This document shows positions 8,968 through 61,577 of a stretch of 64,000 nucleotides of DNA, one piece after another. Source of the stretch: Halobaculum halobium (GTDB lineage Archaea > Halobacteriota > Halobacteria > Halobacteriales > Haloferacaceae). Every line of letters begins with the position of its first letter. The first letter of the stretch is position 1. The notes under the pieces are model-generated. The model ran no database searches, was not told the DNA's origin, and was given only the letters and a program-made list of their open reading frames with translations. The DNA lies in assembly GCF_030127145.1 (NCBI RefSeq), contig NZ_CP126159.1:248001-312000 (forward strand), written 5' to 3'. The translations under genes and the position numbers were made by a program.

Positions 8968-9138
8968 ACAAGAGCGTTGCGCTCTCGCACCGTGAGCGGC
9001 GCTCGGTCGTCTGGAGGGGACGAGCGGCAGTCGCGTGAGTCTGACGGGCGACGACTCCGCCGACTCACGGCGTTGACGTTGACAGACCGACAGCGAGTGA
9101 GACCGCGGTACCCTTCCCGTTGTAGCGGGCCCCCTGGC

Positions 9139-9624
9139 TCACTCGTCGACCAGCACGTCGACGAGCGACTCCGTGGAATACGACGACAACGCGCGCGCAT
9201 CGTCGTACAGCGTCTCGATGACGTACGTGGAGTTCGTCCGCTCGACCGCGGGAATGCCCTCGAACTCGCGCAGCAGGCGTCCGACCGCCTTGTCATCGGG
9301 GAGGTGCGCGACGGCGACGAAGTCCGTTTCGCCCATCGTCGACAGCAGGGTCGTCACGCCCTCGATCTCGGTGATCGTTGACGCAACGTCCGCGTGCTCC
9401 CCGGCGTAGTCGGCGAGCACCTCGACGAGCACGGTCACGCCCAACCCGAGCGCGTCGAGGTCCAGGTCGTACAGGTCGTTCGTGATCACGCCGGCCTCTC
9501 GGAGGTTGTTCAGGCGGTAGTGGATGGTCGAGACGGGAATTCCGGTCTCCTCGTTGATCCGTTCCGGGCTGCCGGTCCCTAGGTCGCCGATCGCCTTGAG
9601 GATGCGAACGTCGCGCTCATCCAT
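9139..9624 (-). CDS. Lrp/AsnC-family transcriptional regulator
   Basis: 161 residues. An N-terminal winged helix (MDERDVRILKAIGDLG, then the recognition region GIPVSTIHYRLNNLREAGVI) is followed by an RAM-type ligand-binding domain (GVTVLVEVLADYAGEH... GETDFVAVAHLPDDKAVGRLL). This is the standard haloarchaeal Lrp length and layout. It is divergent from the EamA transporter gene at 9792 with 167 bp between them, a typical local regulator/transporter arrangement; the ligand could be an amino acid exported by that transporter, which is inference. Confidence 0.9.
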   Translation of the reverse strand: MDERDVRILKAIGDLGTGSPERINEETGIPVSTIHYRLNNLREAGVITNDLYDLDLDALGLGVTVLVEVLADYAGEHADVASTITEIEGVTTLLSTMGETDFVAVAHLPDDKAVGRLLREFEGIPAVERTNSTYVIETLYDDARALSSYSTESLVDVLVDE

Positions 9625-9791
9625 ACGCGACTTCCCGGGGGCCGGCCTGAAAGTTCCAACTGCTCCGACTCTCGGTTATCGATCCGATCCTCGTTCGAAA
9701 TTGGCGACAGTTCGTGAGAGACAACTATCGACAAAGCCGATCCGAGTAGAAGTGCTTATCAATTCTAATCCATTAACCCGGAATAGATTCA

Positions 9792-10733
9792 ATGAACTTC
9801 AGCTCTATTTGGAGACGTGCGCCGACGACCGGCGCGTTATTCGTTCTCCTTGCGACGCTGTGGGGCGGGTCGTTCGTCGCCATCGAGGCCGGCGTGAAGG
9901 AGTGGCCGCCGTTACTGTTCGCGGCGATCAGATACGACCTCGCCGGGGTGCTCGTGCTGGCAGTCGCCGTTGTGGGTGGCGGGCGATCGCTCCCGCGGAC
10001 CCGCGGTGATCTCGGGGCCGTCGCTAGCGTCGCGGTGTTCGTTATCTTCGCTCATCACGCGCTGTTGTACGTCGGACAGGAGACGGTTCCCGGCCCCGTC
10101 GCGTCGGCGGTCATCGCGCTCTCGCCGGTTGTGACCGCGCTGCTTGCCCCGTACGTGCTCGGCGCCGGCGAACTCGAACCCGTCCAGTATCTCGGCGTTG
10201 CGGTCGGGTTCCTGGGCGTCATCGCGGTGACCGATCCCGGGGGATCGGGCGGCATCCCGGTGACGGGGACGCTGTTGGTGTTCGGCGCGACAGTCGCGTT
10301 CGCGCTCGGGACGATCCTGCTGCGACGCGTCCAGACGACGGTTTCTGCCGCCGGGCTGCAGGGGTGGGGGATGGTTGCGGGCGCCGGCTTACTCCACCTG
10401 GGGAGCCGCGCGCTCGGCGAGCAGCAGGCGCTCGTCGTTTCCCCGGCCGGACTGGCGACGCTCGCGTTCCTGGTCGTGGGACCCGGTGTGATCGCGTTCG
10501 TCCTGTATTTCCGACTGCTCGATTCGGTGGGGGCAACACGCACGATGCTCGTGGGCTACCTCGAACCGATCGCCGCCGCCGGGCTCTCGTTCGCGGTATT
10601 CGGCTACGTGCCGACTGAGGGCGCCGTGCTCGGATTCCTCCTCGTGCTCGGGGGATTCACGCTCGTCGAGGGACACACCCTGCGCGCCGCCGCCGGGGAT
10701 GTCCTCGGGCGGCTCCGAACTGCGCTTCCGTGA
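9792..10733 (+). CDS. EamA (DMT superfamily) transporter, probable metabolite exporter
   Basis: 313-residue integral membrane protein with about ten hydrophobic helices in two EamA repeats. The first repeat begins LLATLWGGSFVAIEAGV, the characteristic start of the family; the second repeat covers roughly residues 155-300 and ends with YLEPIAAAGLSFAVFGY...GFLLVLGGF. Expected to move amino acids or related metabolites out of the cell. The start is ATG at 9792 with an AT-rich stretch (around 9755-9785) upstream suitable as an archaeal promoter. Divergent from an Lrp regulator, which may control it. Confidence 0.88.
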   Translation: MNFSSIWRRAPTTGALFVLLATLWGGSFVAIEAGVKEWPPLLFAAIRYDLAGVLVLAVAVVGGGRSLPRTRGDLGAVASVAVFVIFAHHALLYVGQETVPGPVASAVIALSPVVTALLAPYVLGAGELEPVQYLGVAVGFLGVIAVTDPGGSGGIPVTGTLLVFGATVAFALGTILLRRVQTTVSAAGLQGWGMVAGAGLLHLGSRALGEQQALVVSPAGLATLAFLVVGPGVIAFVLYFRLLDSVGATRTMLVGYLEPIAAAGLSFAVFGYVPTEGAVLGFLLVLGGFTLVEGHTLRAAAGDVLGRLRTALP

Positions 10734-56208: not shown

Positions 56209-57519
56209 CTATTCATCCGGTCGTCGGTAGGCAAGCCAGCCCAGCAACAGCGACATCGAGACGACGACGCTCGCGGCTCCGAACCCGGGGGCGGATCCGG
56301 CGGTCGTACCAGTCTGGACTTCGGAGACGTGCGTCTCTTCGGTGTCGGAATCAGTTAGGGTCGCGGCCGGCGTATCAGTCTGCGTCGCAGTGGCCGTCGG
56401 TGCTGGCGTCGGCGGTACGGTGGTGTTGGTCGAACCGTTCGTGGCGGTAATCGTCTCGGTGGCAGTTGCGTTGGCCGTCGTATTTCCAGTGCCGTTGGCA
56501 GCTTGAACCGTCACGTTACCGACGACCGTCGAATTAAGCTTCACGGCGTAGACACCGGGCGAGTCGAACCGGACGGTGAAGCTCACCCGCCGCTGTTCTT
56601 GCTCGGGAATCTCGACGGCTGTGTTCTCACCCATCGCTGTCCCGTTGCTGTACACGCTGGTCTCGAAGGTCCCGTCGTCGTCACCTTCGTTTTCGACGAT
56701 GCCCGACACATTGACCGGTTCACCGGGTGCGACCGACGTCCGGTTGAGCGAGGTTCCCACGATGGAGAACAGGGGTTCGGGCGGTGCGCTAGCGTCGCCG
56801 CCGCCACCGCCGCCACTGCCGCTGCTACCACCGCCGCTGTTGCCGTTGTCGTCGTTGTCGCTATCCTCGTTGCTCCTCTCGTCGGTCCCGGTATCCTCTG
56901 GGGTAGCGGTTTGTGTCGGCGTTGGGGTCTGGGTCGGCGTTGGCGTCTGGGTTGGTTCTGGAGTCTGGGTCGACGTTGGCGTCTGAGTCGGTGTCGAAGT
57001 TGCCGAGTCGGTATCGACCGCCAGCTCGACGCTGTTGAACGCCCCCGGCGAGACGCTCTCCCCGTCGCCGCCGGAGAGTTTCGTGTCGGCTTCGACGAAC
57101 GTCAGCTGCGTGGAGCCGGTGGCGTCCTCGGAGACGGTGAGCTTCAGTTCTGCGAGTACGGGATCGTTCGTTTCCTCGGGTCGGAGCTGATTGAACGCCA
57201 CCCAGCCACCGTCGTTGTTCACGTTCACAACCGGGTTCTCGAAGTCGTCGCTCCCGGAGACGCTGTCGACGGTCACGACACTGGGATCGAACGTGAGGTT
57301 CGCCTGGTAGCCACGCACCGCCGTCGCGTTGGCCCAGACATGCACAGTGACCGTGTCACCGGGAGCTGCGTCGATGGTACCGTCGGGGGACCCAGTAACC
57401 GTGTCATCGGCCGAAATTGCGTCTGCAGACACCGGGGTAACTGCGGCGACTACCATCGGAAGCGTGCCGACGACAACGATCAGGGCGGCCACGACGACGA
57501 TCCCCCCACCGTCTCTCAT
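56209..57519 (-). CDS. Cohesin-domain surface protein with PGF-CTERM anchor
   Basis: 436 residues. Order: hydrophobic signal (about 7-30); a cohesin-like domain at about 35-170 (TVTVHVWANATAVRGYQANLTFDP and AELKLTVSEDATGS, the repeated strand pattern of cohesin modules); a Thr/Pro stalk of TPTQTP repeats (about 175-205); Asp/Asn and Gly/Ser runs; a CARDB-like domain (about 248-345); a Thr/Asn-rich stretch; and a C-terminal sorting signal with PGFGAASVV, a hydrophobic span and RRPDE, the PGF-CTERM arrangement recognised by archaeosortase. Gene overlaps the dockerin-bearing phosphoesterase by 4 bp (ATGA). Probably a surface scaffold holding that enzyme. Confidence 0.8.
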   Translation of the reverse strand: MRDGGGIVVVAALIVVVGTLPMVVAAVTPVSADAISADDTVTGSPDGTIDAAPGDTVTVHVWANATAVRGYQANLTFDPSVVTVDSVSGSDDFENPVVNVNNDGGWVAFNQLRPEETNDPVLAELKLTVSEDATGSTQLTFVEADTKLSGGDGESVSPGAFNSVELAVDTDSATSTPTQTPTSTQTPEPTQTPTPTQTPTPTQTATPEDTGTDERSNEDSDNDDNGNSGGGSSGSGGGGGGDASAPPEPLFSIVGTSLNRTSVAPGEPVNVSGIVENEGDDDGTFETSVYSNGTAMGENTAVEIPEQEQRRVSFTVRFDSPGVYAVKLNSTVVGNVTVQAANGTGNTTANATATETITATNGSTNTTVPPTPAPTATATQTDTPAATLTDSDTEETHVSEVQTGTTAGSAPGFGAASVVVSMSLLLGWLAYRRPDE

Positions 57520-59336
57520 TGGCTCCCTCCTGCGAAGTTGTCGACCGCGACAGCGTCACTGATGTCGACATCACCGTCGCCGTCAACGTCCGCGGCCGTC
57601 CGGTTGATATCCACGTCCTCGCCGGCTATCGAGCGCTGGATTCGGGTCACGTCGTCATCGTCGATGTCACCGTCGCCATCGGCGTCTCCGACCGCGGCGT
57701 CCCTCGGGTCGTAGTCGACGATCAACGTCGGCGGGGTGCCGCTTCTGACGCCTTTGATATCCCAGCCGTCCGAGCCTAGCGGTCGGAACACCCAGCCCCT
57801 GTTGCGCGCGCCGTCCACCCAGGCTTGCACGCTTGTAGTCACGTCGACCGTCGTCTCGCCCGTCTCGACTGCGCCGGTCTCCGTCTCTGGCTCGGAGACG
57901 GCGTCTAACCCATCGGCCTGGATACCGCCGCCCACCGAAGCCCACGTGGACTCTGGTGTCCAACCCGTCCGTAGTCGGTGGACCGCGGCGCCGTCGCCGG
58001 CGTCTGCGGTCTGGAGCCGCAACGTGGCTTCGGTGATCGTAGCTCCGGGAGGAATTTGGCTGTCGCCGAGTCCGACGATACCATCGAACCGGAGGAGGAC
58101 CTGTGTGGCATAACCGGTCCCTTGGGGATTGTCTCCGTCGGTTGACAGGCTCTCGACTGTGCCGTAGCTCGATTCCGGGTCGGCGGCCCGTAGCATCGTG
58201 TCGGCCGCGCCTTCGTAGCCGTCTGTCCCCTGTTGGAACGTCGCGGAGGGGTCGTCCGGTTCATCCGGCTCTTCGGATGACGACCCGAACCGTGCGTCGA
58301 AGTCCAGATCGAACCCGAACTTCGAGTCGCCGTCGGTCTTTTCATCGCCTGTGCTCGGAGAGTACGTCCGCACCTGGATCCGGTCCGGCGCGTCCGACCC
58401 ACCCCCGGGTCGGAACTCGATGCGACGCATGAAGCCGTTCCCACCGTTGGGTACGCCGAACTGGTAGTTCGCGAGCAGTTCGTACACCTCCGAGTCGGCG
58501 GCATTCGTCGACACTTGGTGGACTTCGCCGTCGTCCTCGTGCCAGTGGCCACAGAGGACCATGAACACCTGCTCGTTCGGTGAGATGAGTTCCTCCCAGA
58601 GCGTCTGGCCCGTGTTGCCGATGTTGTTCGCTTCTTGGAGGTTCCGCCCGCGCCGCTTCGGCGAGTCACGGAGATACGAGTGCGTGGTGACGATCGTCGC
58701 TCGGTCCGGGTGGTCGTCGAGGACGCGTTGGGCCCACCCCAACGGGGTCGACGAGTCGTCGACCGACCCTGGCGTCTCCCATTCCAACGCAAGATGCATG
58801 AAGTCGTAGCCGCCTGCGGAGAACAACTGGTAGCTGTTGAGGTTGTCCCGGTTCTCGTCGCCGTTGGTCGGACCCGCACCGCCGAACCAGTCCCGCTGTG
58901 CGTACCGCGAGGGACCGAAGCGCTCCTTGTATCTGGCAATTCCAGAGAGGCGGTCCCACAGCTCCACGTAGTCGTGGTTACCCGTGACGGACGCGTACGG
59001 GACTACCCCATCAAGCGTGGACAAGGCGTCGTCGATGTACTGCCACTCGGCGTCATCGTCGCCGTTTTCGACCAGGTCGCCCTCGTGGCTCGCGAATACG
59101 ATGTTCTCCGCGTCGGCGTTGTCGGCGATCCATTCGGTCTGATCCTTGGCGTAGGATGTCTTGTTTTCAGCATAGTTCTGGGTATCGGGGAGCGCGACGA
59201 CTGTCCAGTAGTCGTCGGACTCCTGAGCGCTGCCCCCGACCGTCCCGAGCGTCGCAACGCCGACGCCGGCGCCGATGGTTCCCAGCAGTCGGCGCCGCGT
59301 CGTCGTGACTGCGCGTTCGGTACTGTCTCTAGGCAT
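57516..59336 (-). CDS. Tat-exported metallophosphoesterase with DNRLRE and dockerin domains
   Basis: 606 residues. Twin-arginine signal TTRRRLLGTIGAGVG (about 12-26). Calcineurin-like phosphoesterase (about 43-345): VVALPDTQNYAEN, HEGDLVENG, VTGNHDYVE (residues 118-126), TIVTTHSYLRD and VLCGHWHEDDGE supply the metal-binding His/Asp/Asn set. Then a DNRLRE-type beta domain (about 385-545) with DTMLRAADPESSYGT and RGWVFRPLGSDGWDIKG. The last ~60 residues form a type I dockerin with two calcium loops, DADGDGDIDDDDVTRI and DVDGDGDVDISDAV. The next gene encodes a cohesin, so the enzyme is probably displayed by it. Confidence 0.87.
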   Translation of the reverse strand: MPRDSTERAVTTTRRRLLGTIGAGVGVATLGTVGGSAQESDDYWTVVALPDTQNYAENKTSYAKDQTEWIADNADAENIVFASHEGDLVENGDDDAEWQYIDDALSTLDGVVPYASVTGNHDYVELWDRLSGIARYKERFGPSRYAQRDWFGGAGPTNGDENRDNLNSYQLFSAGGYDFMHLALEWETPGSVDDSSTPLGWAQRVLDDHPDRATIVTTHSYLRDSPKRRGRNLQEANNIGNTGQTLWEELISPNEQVFMVLCGHWHEDDGEVHQVSTNAADSEVYELLANYQFGVPNGGNGFMRRIEFRPGGGSDAPDRIQVRTYSPSTGDEKTDGDSKFGFDLDFDARFGSSSEEPDEPDDPSATFQQGTDGYEGAADTMLRAADPESSYGTVESLSTDGDNPQGTGYATQVLLRFDGIVGLGDSQIPPGATITEATLRLQTADAGDGAAVHRLRTGWTPESTWASVGGGIQADGLDAVSEPETETGAVETGETTVDVTTSVQAWVDGARNRGWVFRPLGSDGWDIKGVRSGTPPTLIVDYDPRDAAVGDADGDGDIDDDDVTRIQRSIAGEDVDINRTAADVDGDGDVDISDAVAVDNFAGGSQ

Positions 59337-59650: not shown

Positions 59651-60787
59651 TCAGTCCATCGCCTCGATCTTGTGTGGTGAGTCCAGCGACTTGACGGTCT
59701 CCACGATATCGGTGTCGAGGTTGTGCTCGCTCCAGTTTCGCTTGCGGGGGATGGCTGCGTGGTACGTCGATACGCCCTCGAACAGCTCCCGAAAGGCTGC
59801 CCGTTCTTGTTCGACGACCGCATCGAGGGCGGCGACCATCGAGCCGCCGTCGACGAGGGAATCGTAAGCGTGGAAGTACTCCCTGAGCCGCCCGTCCCAT
59901 TCGAAGTTACAGATCGCGCTGGTGGCCGACATCGCGGCTTCTGTGGAAATCCGTTCCACGGAGAAGGTTTCCATCTTCGGCGCGGCCTCAAGGAAAACGA
60001 CGTTATCGACGCTCGCCTCCTCGAGATACTCCGACCGCGGATACCGGTCGGAGATGTTGGTGAACTCACGGCCGCTGTCGTCGAGATACGCGTCGTTCAG
60101 GTAGGAAACGGCCGTCTCCGGGAGCGACCCGGTTCTGTCGACCCGCGCGTCGATGAAGTCGTAGACCTCGCCGCGCAGGCGCGCCACGTTGGTGGCGTAC
60201 TGGCGTTCGATTTCGGGGAAGGACTCGATGTTGTACGGCTGGAGATTCACGCCGAGGGGATACCCCACGGCCGTCCCGTCCGCGCTCACCCAGAGCCGGT
60301 CATCAGACAGGAAGTCTGCTCCCTGACGCAACAGCGAGAGTAGTATGTTGGTCTTGCCGGCTCCGCGCCAGGCCGGGAACAGCGTCGTCTGCCCGTCGAA
60401 CCGGACCCCGGAGGCGTGTATCAGTGCCTGCCCCGTCGCGGCTCGCTCCTGTCGGATACGGAATTCGATCGGGTAGATTGTGTAGAACGGCTCGAACCCG
60501 TGTGTCACTTTGAGGTGGTCCCACCCTGGTTCGACAGCCATGAAGTCCGACCCGTTCCGGATGACGAACTCCTCGCCCGTCCACCCGTAGTGATCGTTGG
60601 GGTCACCGAGAACGATCTCGGCCTCCACATCCGCTGTCGTCTCTTCGACGATGATGTCGGGGTCGTCAACTGGCGTGCTGGTCGCGAAGTGGTCGTACAT
60701 CTGGCGGAACTGACGGCTCGTCCGCCCGCCCTCCCCCAGGACTGTCACTGTAAGGTCGCCGAAGAATTCGTACGAGTGTTGATTCAT
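59651..60787 (-). CDS. HprK-like P-loop protein (HPr kinase C-terminal type)
   Basis: 378 residues from ATG 60787. N-terminal domain of about 115 residues, then a Walker A-like PAWRGAGKTN (about 138-147) preceded by ALIHASGVRF and followed by LLRQGADFLSDDRLWVS and GYPLGVNLQP. The order GAGKT followed by SDDR is that of the HPr kinase/phosphorylase C-terminal fold. Such archaeal and bacterial HprK-like proteins occur in peptide-modification or glycan clusters and the target is unknown; no HPr gene is present. The long upstream frame is not used since the first 66 residues are unlike the family. Confidence 0.75.
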   Translation of the reverse strand: MNQHSYEFFGDLTVTVLGEGGRTSRQFRQMYDHFATSTPVDDPDIIVEETTADVEAEIVLGDPNDHYGWTGEEFVIRNGSDFMAVEPGWDHLKVTHGFEPFYTIYPIEFRIRQERAATGQALIHASGVRFDGQTTLFPAWRGAGKTNILLSLLRQGADFLSDDRLWVSADGTAVGYPLGVNLQPYNIESFPEIERQYATNVARLRGEVYDFIDARVDRTGSLPETAVSYLNDAYLDDSGREFTNISDRYPRSEYLEEASVDNVVFLEAAPKMETFSVERISTEAAMSATSAICNFEWDGRLREYFHAYDSLVDGGSMVAALDAVVEQERAAFRELFEGVSTYHAAIPRKRNWSEHNLDTDIVETVKSLDSPHKIEAMD

Positions 60788-61577
60788 AGAGCCCCCGATA
60801 ACTTCCGATCGCTTCCCGGACCGATACAGGCGGTCTTTAAATTCATCCTCTCTGATTCTGCGATATCCCGGTATATGATTATGGATGGTACAGCGTACCA
60901 CGACAGCCGATACTGAAGAGACCAATCCGTTGGCGCGATGCTTCACCGTTCGGTCCAGCAATCGACGAAAACGCCGGAGGTACATCCAGGATACTTACCA
61001 CTGAGACTCGGACGGTCGCTCGCGGGGATCCCTCCCGTCGTTTACCACGTACAGTCCGTTCGCACTTCAGTCGGCTCCGGATACCCTACTCAGGTTGAAC
61101 GTGAACGGTATGGTGAATTAGATACTCGGCGTGACCAGTGTGGTCGCTGGCCGATCACCGGCTTGGTTCGTTGAGCGCAGATGGTCCTACTGGTAGGCAA
61201 CCCAGCAAACGTCGTCGGATTGGTGGTGCACTCGACAGATTCTCTCGCTCGTTGGCCAGCACACAAGTTGCTATGCTTCTGTAGAAATCCTCAGCCGGCG
61301 GTAACGTTTCGATGCCGTGCTGAATACAGATGAATCAGCTATCACCGTGAAATCTGGTGAGACTACATTCTGGGCAGATGTAGCAAGCCAAATATTCCCT
61401 TTGAGGTCGAGAGCACCGAATAAACCACCAGAGTTGATGCGTATTCCGCCGCCCCTGTACGAAGTCTTGAGCTCCATCTTCTTCACTCTACATCCCAGTC
61501 AGGACATGAAGGCATGGGCAAATGATTCCGAGTTGTACCTATTAACGGTGGGTTCACACGTCTAACAACAAACTCCA
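60788..61577. other. AT-richer gene-poor stretch
   Basis: Composition visibly lower in GC than the left part of the window. Two overlapping small frames, 61271-61486 (minus, 71 codons, GTG start, beginning MKKMELKTSYRGGGIRIN) and 61317-61565 (plus, 82 codons), cannot both be real and neither has a known domain. No transposase, repeat or tRNA is recognised. Confidence 0.4.

Follow-up and report, generated by a model that had tools for sequence, protein, structure and literature searches.

Gene organisation and domain architecture of the locus

The 64,000-nucleotide stretch of Halobaculum halobium DNA analysed in this study (hereafter the window; C2:248001-312000 of a 3.46 Mb genome in three contigs, 95% complete) contains two overlapping genes, one encoding a predicted secreted metallophosphoesterase with a dockerin and the other a surface protein with a cohesin. 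The phosphoesterase gene (606 residues, 57516..59336) and the cohesin gene (436 residues, 56209..57519) are both located on the minus strand, as are all the window features described below, and the cohesin gene lies directly downstream. They overlap in an ATGA stop-start sequence (57516..57519), which points to translational coupling. Both open reading frames (ORFs) and their overlap were found to be as given in the initial annotation of this DNA. Scanning of the whole genome with the cohesin (PF00963) and dockerin (PF00404) profiles returned one cohesin and one dockerin over the cut-off, adjacent to each other at this locus, and a single extra weak dockerin match (11.9 bits, E value 0.93). 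Relatives of the window are haloarchaea, and among named records Halorubrum sp. CSM-61 has the phosphoesterase copy closest to that of the window. Among plasmids, two from Halobaculum matched the neighbourhood only, and two others were weakly matched by the cohesin protein.

The phosphoesterase begins with a twin-arginine (Tat-type) signal region (residues 1-38, 59223..59336) containing TTRRRLLGTIG. Both arginines of the Tat-type pair are invariant across 19 aligned homologues, and the Tat profile TIGR01409 gave 11.9 bits only. A calcineurin-like phosphoesterase domain follows (residues 40-352, 58281..59219), identified by PF00149 (E value 8e-7, 30.1 bits against a cut-off of 21.5), by conserved columns and by structural modelling. 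In the homologue alignment the predicted metal ligands D51, Q53, D87, N120, H219 and H264 are invariant and H266 is conserved in at least 90% of the sequences; Gln replaces His in the first metal motif, which reads D-T-Q and not D-x-H. The AlphaFold2 model of the catalytic domain has a predicted local distance difference test score (pLDDT) mostly above 90, and its best fold matches were Lmo2642 (Z 21.0), purple acid phosphatase (Z 20.1) and GpdQ (Z 19.9).

Next in the chain is a DNRLRE domain (residues 378-523, 57768..58205), which scored 52.4 bits with NCBIfam NF033679 against a cut-off of 34. It is CBM96-like in relatives, PF24517 being matched in 10/19 phosphoesterase homologues (E value at most 0.01). 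The protein then ends in a type I dockerin (residues 550-600, 57537..57689), in which the loop motifs DADGDGDIDDDDV and DVDGDGDVDISDAV together score as one domain (PF00404, E value 8.7e-6, 26.3 bits against the Pfam cut-off of 22.9). Each of the two calcium loops is 12 residues long, carries Asp/Asn ligands at positions conserved across 24 homologues, and is followed by a helix (560-571 and 592-602), making two loop-helix repeats in a model of moderate confidence. The earlier proposal of a Tat-exported phosphoesterase with two dockerin loops is thereby supported.

The cohesin protein starts with a Sec-type signal peptide without twin arginines (residues 1-33, 57421..57519; helix 6-18 in the model), and the cohesin domain occupies residues 32-171 (57007..57426). 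The initial annotation had called this domain cohesin-like, and both profile and fold agree with it. PF00963 matched with an E value of 1.7e-11 and 44.9 bits against a curated cut-off of 24.1. The AlphaFold2 model, for which the window protein was aligned with its named relatives, showed a beta-sandwich cohesin fold with a pLDDT of 92-97 over most residues, and 49 of the best 50 matches among solved structures were cohesins (Z 16.9 to 12.1; root-mean-square deviation 2.0 over 131 residues). A Thr/Pro stalk with an Asp/Gly-rich linker (residues 174-245, 56785..57000), recognised from its composition and low pLDDT, separates the cohesin from a CARDB-type immunoglobulin (Ig)-like domain (residues 251-338, 56506..56769). 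The latter had been annotated as CARDB-like; it models as a confident beta-sandwich (pLDDT about 90), but its PF07705 score lies just under the cut-off (22.3 against 22.7 bits), and 6/19 relatives match this profile at an E value of at most 0.01. The C-terminal end of the protein, APGFGAASVVVSMSLLLGWLAYRRPDE, is a PGF-like sorting or anchor region (residues 411-436, 56212..56289) in which the PGF motif, a hydrophobic helix (416-431 in the model) and an Arg cluster are seen directly in this order. An archaeosortase A (ArtA) is encoded in the genome (TIGR04125, 331 bits against a cut-off of 75).

Genomic association of the dockerin with the cohesin in haloarchaea

The class was searched with the catalytic domain in a survey of 391 haloarchaeal genomes, and the DNA around cohesins and phosphoesterases was scanned with profiles built for this analysis. 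Cohesins were present in 153 of these genomes and dockerins in 172. Together with two copies from named records, the 31 full-length phosphoesterases of the survey made a set of 33 haloarchaeal enzymes, of which 24 carry a dockerin at the C-terminus; in all 24 a cohesin ORF lies immediately downstream on the same strand. The other nine enzymes lack the dockerin and none has a cohesin within 5 kb (Fisher p 2.6e-8 for 24/0 against 0/9, relatedness ignored). The dockerin-bearing phosphoesterase and the cohesin gene, introduced in the initial annotation as a coupled pair, were thus seen in haloarchaea only together. Enzymes with and without the dockerin coexist in four genomes (G081, G122, G358 and G379). 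On the enzyme tree the dockerin and cohesin traits change four times each; agreement is seen in all three independent pairs with support, a number too small for a significant sign test.

The stop-start overlap is kept in 21 of the 24 pairs, as a four-nucleotide ATGA or GTGA in 19 and as TGATG in two, and in the remaining three the genes nearly abut. The composition of the pair was found to vary around a constant core. The enzymes of L066-L068 are without the DNRLRE domain and consist of catalytic domain and dockerin, and their cohesin proteins are shortened to signal, cohesin and PGF anchor, with the stalk and the CARDB domain gone; the DNRLRE domain is likewise missing from L065 and L074. In every pair the catalytic domain and dockerin of the enzyme are kept, as are the signal and cohesin of its neighbour. 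In one genome (G358 C21, L073:5707-6807) the cohesin ORF runs out of frame past the cohesin domain, which points to a frameshift or an assembly error.

The pair was found in 21/391 genomes, belonging to eight genera and two families. None of ten further genomes from the genus of the window holds a cohesin or the phosphoesterase; this patchy distribution points to horizontal transfer or to repeated loss. The tree of 99 haloarchaeal cohesins splits those near a dockerin (of this pair and of the subtilase systems described below) from nearly all the dockerin-less ones by a long branch with 100% support, and the cohesins of the pair are compatible with one origin. Further, the distances of enzyme and cohesin were found to be correlated (0.87), as were those of dockerin and cohesin (0.77).

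The two genes quite probably serve together to display one enzyme, as a unit of cohesin and dockerin dedicated to it. Several observations weigh against this reading. Confidence in the dockerin model is no more than moderate (pLDDT 62-74). The C-terminal signal, named PGF-CTERM in the initial annotation, has the layout of such a signal and a sortase in the same genome, but its score with the PGF-CTERM model TIGR04126 is 12.7 bits, below the cut-off of 24.5, and the PGF motif is degenerate in several relatives. The partial correlation of dockerin and cohesin is weak (0.18) once the enzyme distances are removed; hence the distances establish co-inheritance of dockerin and cohesin, and co-evolution of an interface does not follow from them. 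Finally, dockerin-like domains with no detected cohesin occur in the haloarchaeal genome G113 and in the Planctomycetes (L242 and L272). Such cohesin-less domains favour another explanation, in which the dockerin has a mainly stabilising, calcium-binding function or a different binding partner, and its neighbour, the cohesin-like protein, is an adhesin with no connection to it other than the operon; the cohesin fold could then be a general Ig-like adhesin domain. This explanation is, however, rather unlikely, since the dockerin and an adjacent cohesin coincide without exception, with both kinds of enzyme occurring within four genomes, and since the minimal versions retain precisely the dockerin and the cohesin beside enzyme and anchor.

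The display of a single enzyme, as put forward in the initial annotation, is supported because the window's own genome and seven further pair genomes hold exactly one cohesin and one dockerin. A cellulosome proper was considered and rejected for the window, since its genome has one cohesin and no multi-cohesin scaffoldin, and its sole dockerin over the cut-off is borne by a phosphoesterase and not by a glycosidase. The cohesin might still serve as a scaffold for several dockerin enzymes in a cellulosome-like manner, the phosphoesterase being just one client; some pair genomes contain 2-4 dockerins, and a scaffoldin with 14 cohesins exists in another haloarchaeon. Against the 1:1 ratio of the eight genomes, and with a single cohesin hit in 19/21 pair genomes, such a scaffold role is very improbable.

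Other arrangements of these modules were observed in the same survey. At L086, L089, L093, L094, L099, L105, L112, L113, L117, L120, L129 and other loci, the gene for a large protein with a C-terminal cohesin and dockerin precedes a small, separate cohesin gene; three of the five large proteins tested are subtilases, and this is a second recurring arrangement of enzyme plus cohesin. In genome G208, a protein of 2089 residues (L364:6162-12431, minus strand) has 14 cohesins and ends in a PGF-like region; its neighbours in a cluster of about 35 kb are dockerin-bearing proteins (L364-L365). All seven of those scanned are subtilases (Peptidase S8), and several of the subtilases of this cluster carry cohesins of their own. 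A similar cluster with a multi-cohesin protein is present in genome G043 (L366-L367), and such clusters suggest a haloarchaeal complex of proteases organised in the manner of a cellulosome. A smaller version is seen in genome G361, where proteins with four and two cohesins (L368:6729-8924 and 9111-10628) lie between two large cohesin-dockerin proteins, one of which was tested and is a subtilase. L097, L101, L103, L132 and about 60 similar loci hold a distinct cohesin clade with no dockerin within about 6 kb. Among Planctomycete relatives of the phosphoesterase (L242:3947-6539 and L272), the dockerin precedes what appears to be a PEP-CTERM-type end of the same polypeptide, and the vicinity holds no cohesin.

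An HprK-like kinase gene beside the pair

The two-gene picture of the initial annotation holds for the dockerin-cohesin pair, but it had overlooked the DNRLRE domain and a neighbouring gene for an HprK-like P-loop kinase (59651..60985; 378 residues from its likely start at 60787; Walker A motif PAWRGAGKTN). DNA comparison showed that this gene travels with the pair. The protein scored 31.9 bits with the HprK-related kinase B model TIGR04355, far below the cut-off of 200, the P-loop region alone being matched. It has no Pfam relative and no convincing sequence relative in the PDB, it is weakly similar to the FomB kinase family, and it shares 41-76% identity with its own relatives. The kinase gene adjoins 16/20 pairs examined, upstream in 11 and downstream in five, and the association therefore survives rearrangement. 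With at least 40% identity required, a copy is present in 21/391 genomes, namely 19/21 genomes with the pair against 2/370 others, figures which are inflated by relatedness. Judged from these sequence comparisons, the kinase, presumably cytosolic, appears to be part of the same locus as the pair.

A possible addition to the display mechanism is a kinase-phosphatase unit, in which the HprK-like kinase would phosphorylate an internal molecule and the displayed phosphoesterase would dephosphorylate it outside. The position of the kinase on either side of the pair, its near confinement to pair genomes and its weak FomB similarity speak for this idea; it is nevertheless doubtful, as no conserved biosynthetic genes adjoin the cassette in the window or in Haloarcula, and G301 and G171 either lack the kinase or have a broken one. 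The suggested purposes of such a unit, producer self-protection or surface-glycan maturation, are equally improbable. The same low likelihood attaches to a mobile three-gene cassette in which a cytosolic kinase would phosphorylate an exported molecule and the Tat-exported enzyme, held by cohesin and dockerin, would remove the phosphate outside. If true, cohesin and dockerin would here serve compartment-separated phosphate chemistry and not biomass breakdown.

A larger conserved gene cluster was not found, the genes on the flanks being unrelated in the window and in Haloarcula. Glycan-type genes (glycosyltransferase, aminotransferase and oxidoreductase), identified by eye, recur at some other loci only. 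In G171 the kinase is left as fragments beside the pair (L311, G171:C25:164434-164826), apparently a decaying copy.

Proposed display mechanism and comparison with known systems

For the display unit, a possible course of events can be outlined. The phosphoesterase would be exported in the folded state through the Tat pathway, without an anchor of its own, and the cohesin protein would be exported unfolded through Sec. The PGF-like C-terminus may anchor the cohesin protein at the surface, probably after processing by archaeosortase A, and the stalk would raise its cohesin through the S-layer. Once outside the cell, the dockerin is expected to fold with calcium and to clip onto the cohesin of its neighbour, by which the enzyme would be kept at the surface; this binding and its calcium dependence are proposed for the locus from established knowledge of the two families. 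The overlapping genes may balance the amounts of both parts. The DNRLRE/CBM96-like domain may bind glycan, and phosphate esters at the surface or close to it are the probable targets of the phosphoesterase. As it recurs in no fewer than seven further haloarchaeal genera, the pair resembles a cellulosome in miniature that displays a single enzyme.

The combination of an enzyme dockerin with an adjacent cohesin anchor across eight genera would give these modules a concrete role, that of holding one Tat-exported enzyme at the archaeal surface. A pair working at saturating salt would also be useful as a display tag for halophiles. Moreover, through this locus an HprK-like kinase that has no name becomes connected with a surface phosphoesterase.

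The catalytic domain shares its fold (Z 18.7-21.0) and two-metal ligand set with the calcineurin-like metallophosphoesterases purple acid phosphatase, GpdQ, Rv0805 and Lmo2642, whereas its first motif is D-T-Q instead of D-x-H and its identity to these solved structures is 13-18%. The subtilase systems (L086, L094, L129 and others) likewise pair an exported dockerin enzyme with a following cohesin protein; they differ in the Peptidase S8 catalytic domain, in having a cohesin within the enzyme chain and in the separate clade of their cohesins.

That the two modules also occur outside cellulosomes is long established, and papers still describe their role in that setting as unclear. The OlpA/OlpC-type scaffoldins of Clostridium thermocellum resemble the window protein in presenting one cohesin on a surface-anchored protein, and their cohesins (PDB 3ul4 and 4dh2) match its fold with Z 15.4 and 15.2. 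They are anchored by SLH modules in a bacterium which also makes many dockerin cellulases, whereas the window system has a PGF-like anchor and one client, a phosphoesterase from the same operon. No haloarchaeal cohesin-dockerin unit was found in the searchable literature, the main review (Peer et al. 2009) lying outside that search.

The non-cellulosomal cohesin and dockerin of Archaeoglobus fulgidus are likewise archaeal, and the Archaeoglobus cohesin 2xdh is among the fold matches of the window cohesin (Z 15.6); in the searchable literature no enzyme display unit of the window's make-up was found described for them. Archaeal versions of both modules have been shown to bind, and to do so strongly, their wider role being unclear (PMC9012536). 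ANME archaea carry dockerins on functional proteins and have scaffoldin-like proteins with up to five cohesins (PMC9012536). Their genomes hold many cohesins and dockerins, whereas that of the window has one of each in overlapping genes. The system described here differs both from a cellulosome and from an isolated module, and is probably a cohesin-dockerin display with a phosphoesterase client and a kinase-like third gene.

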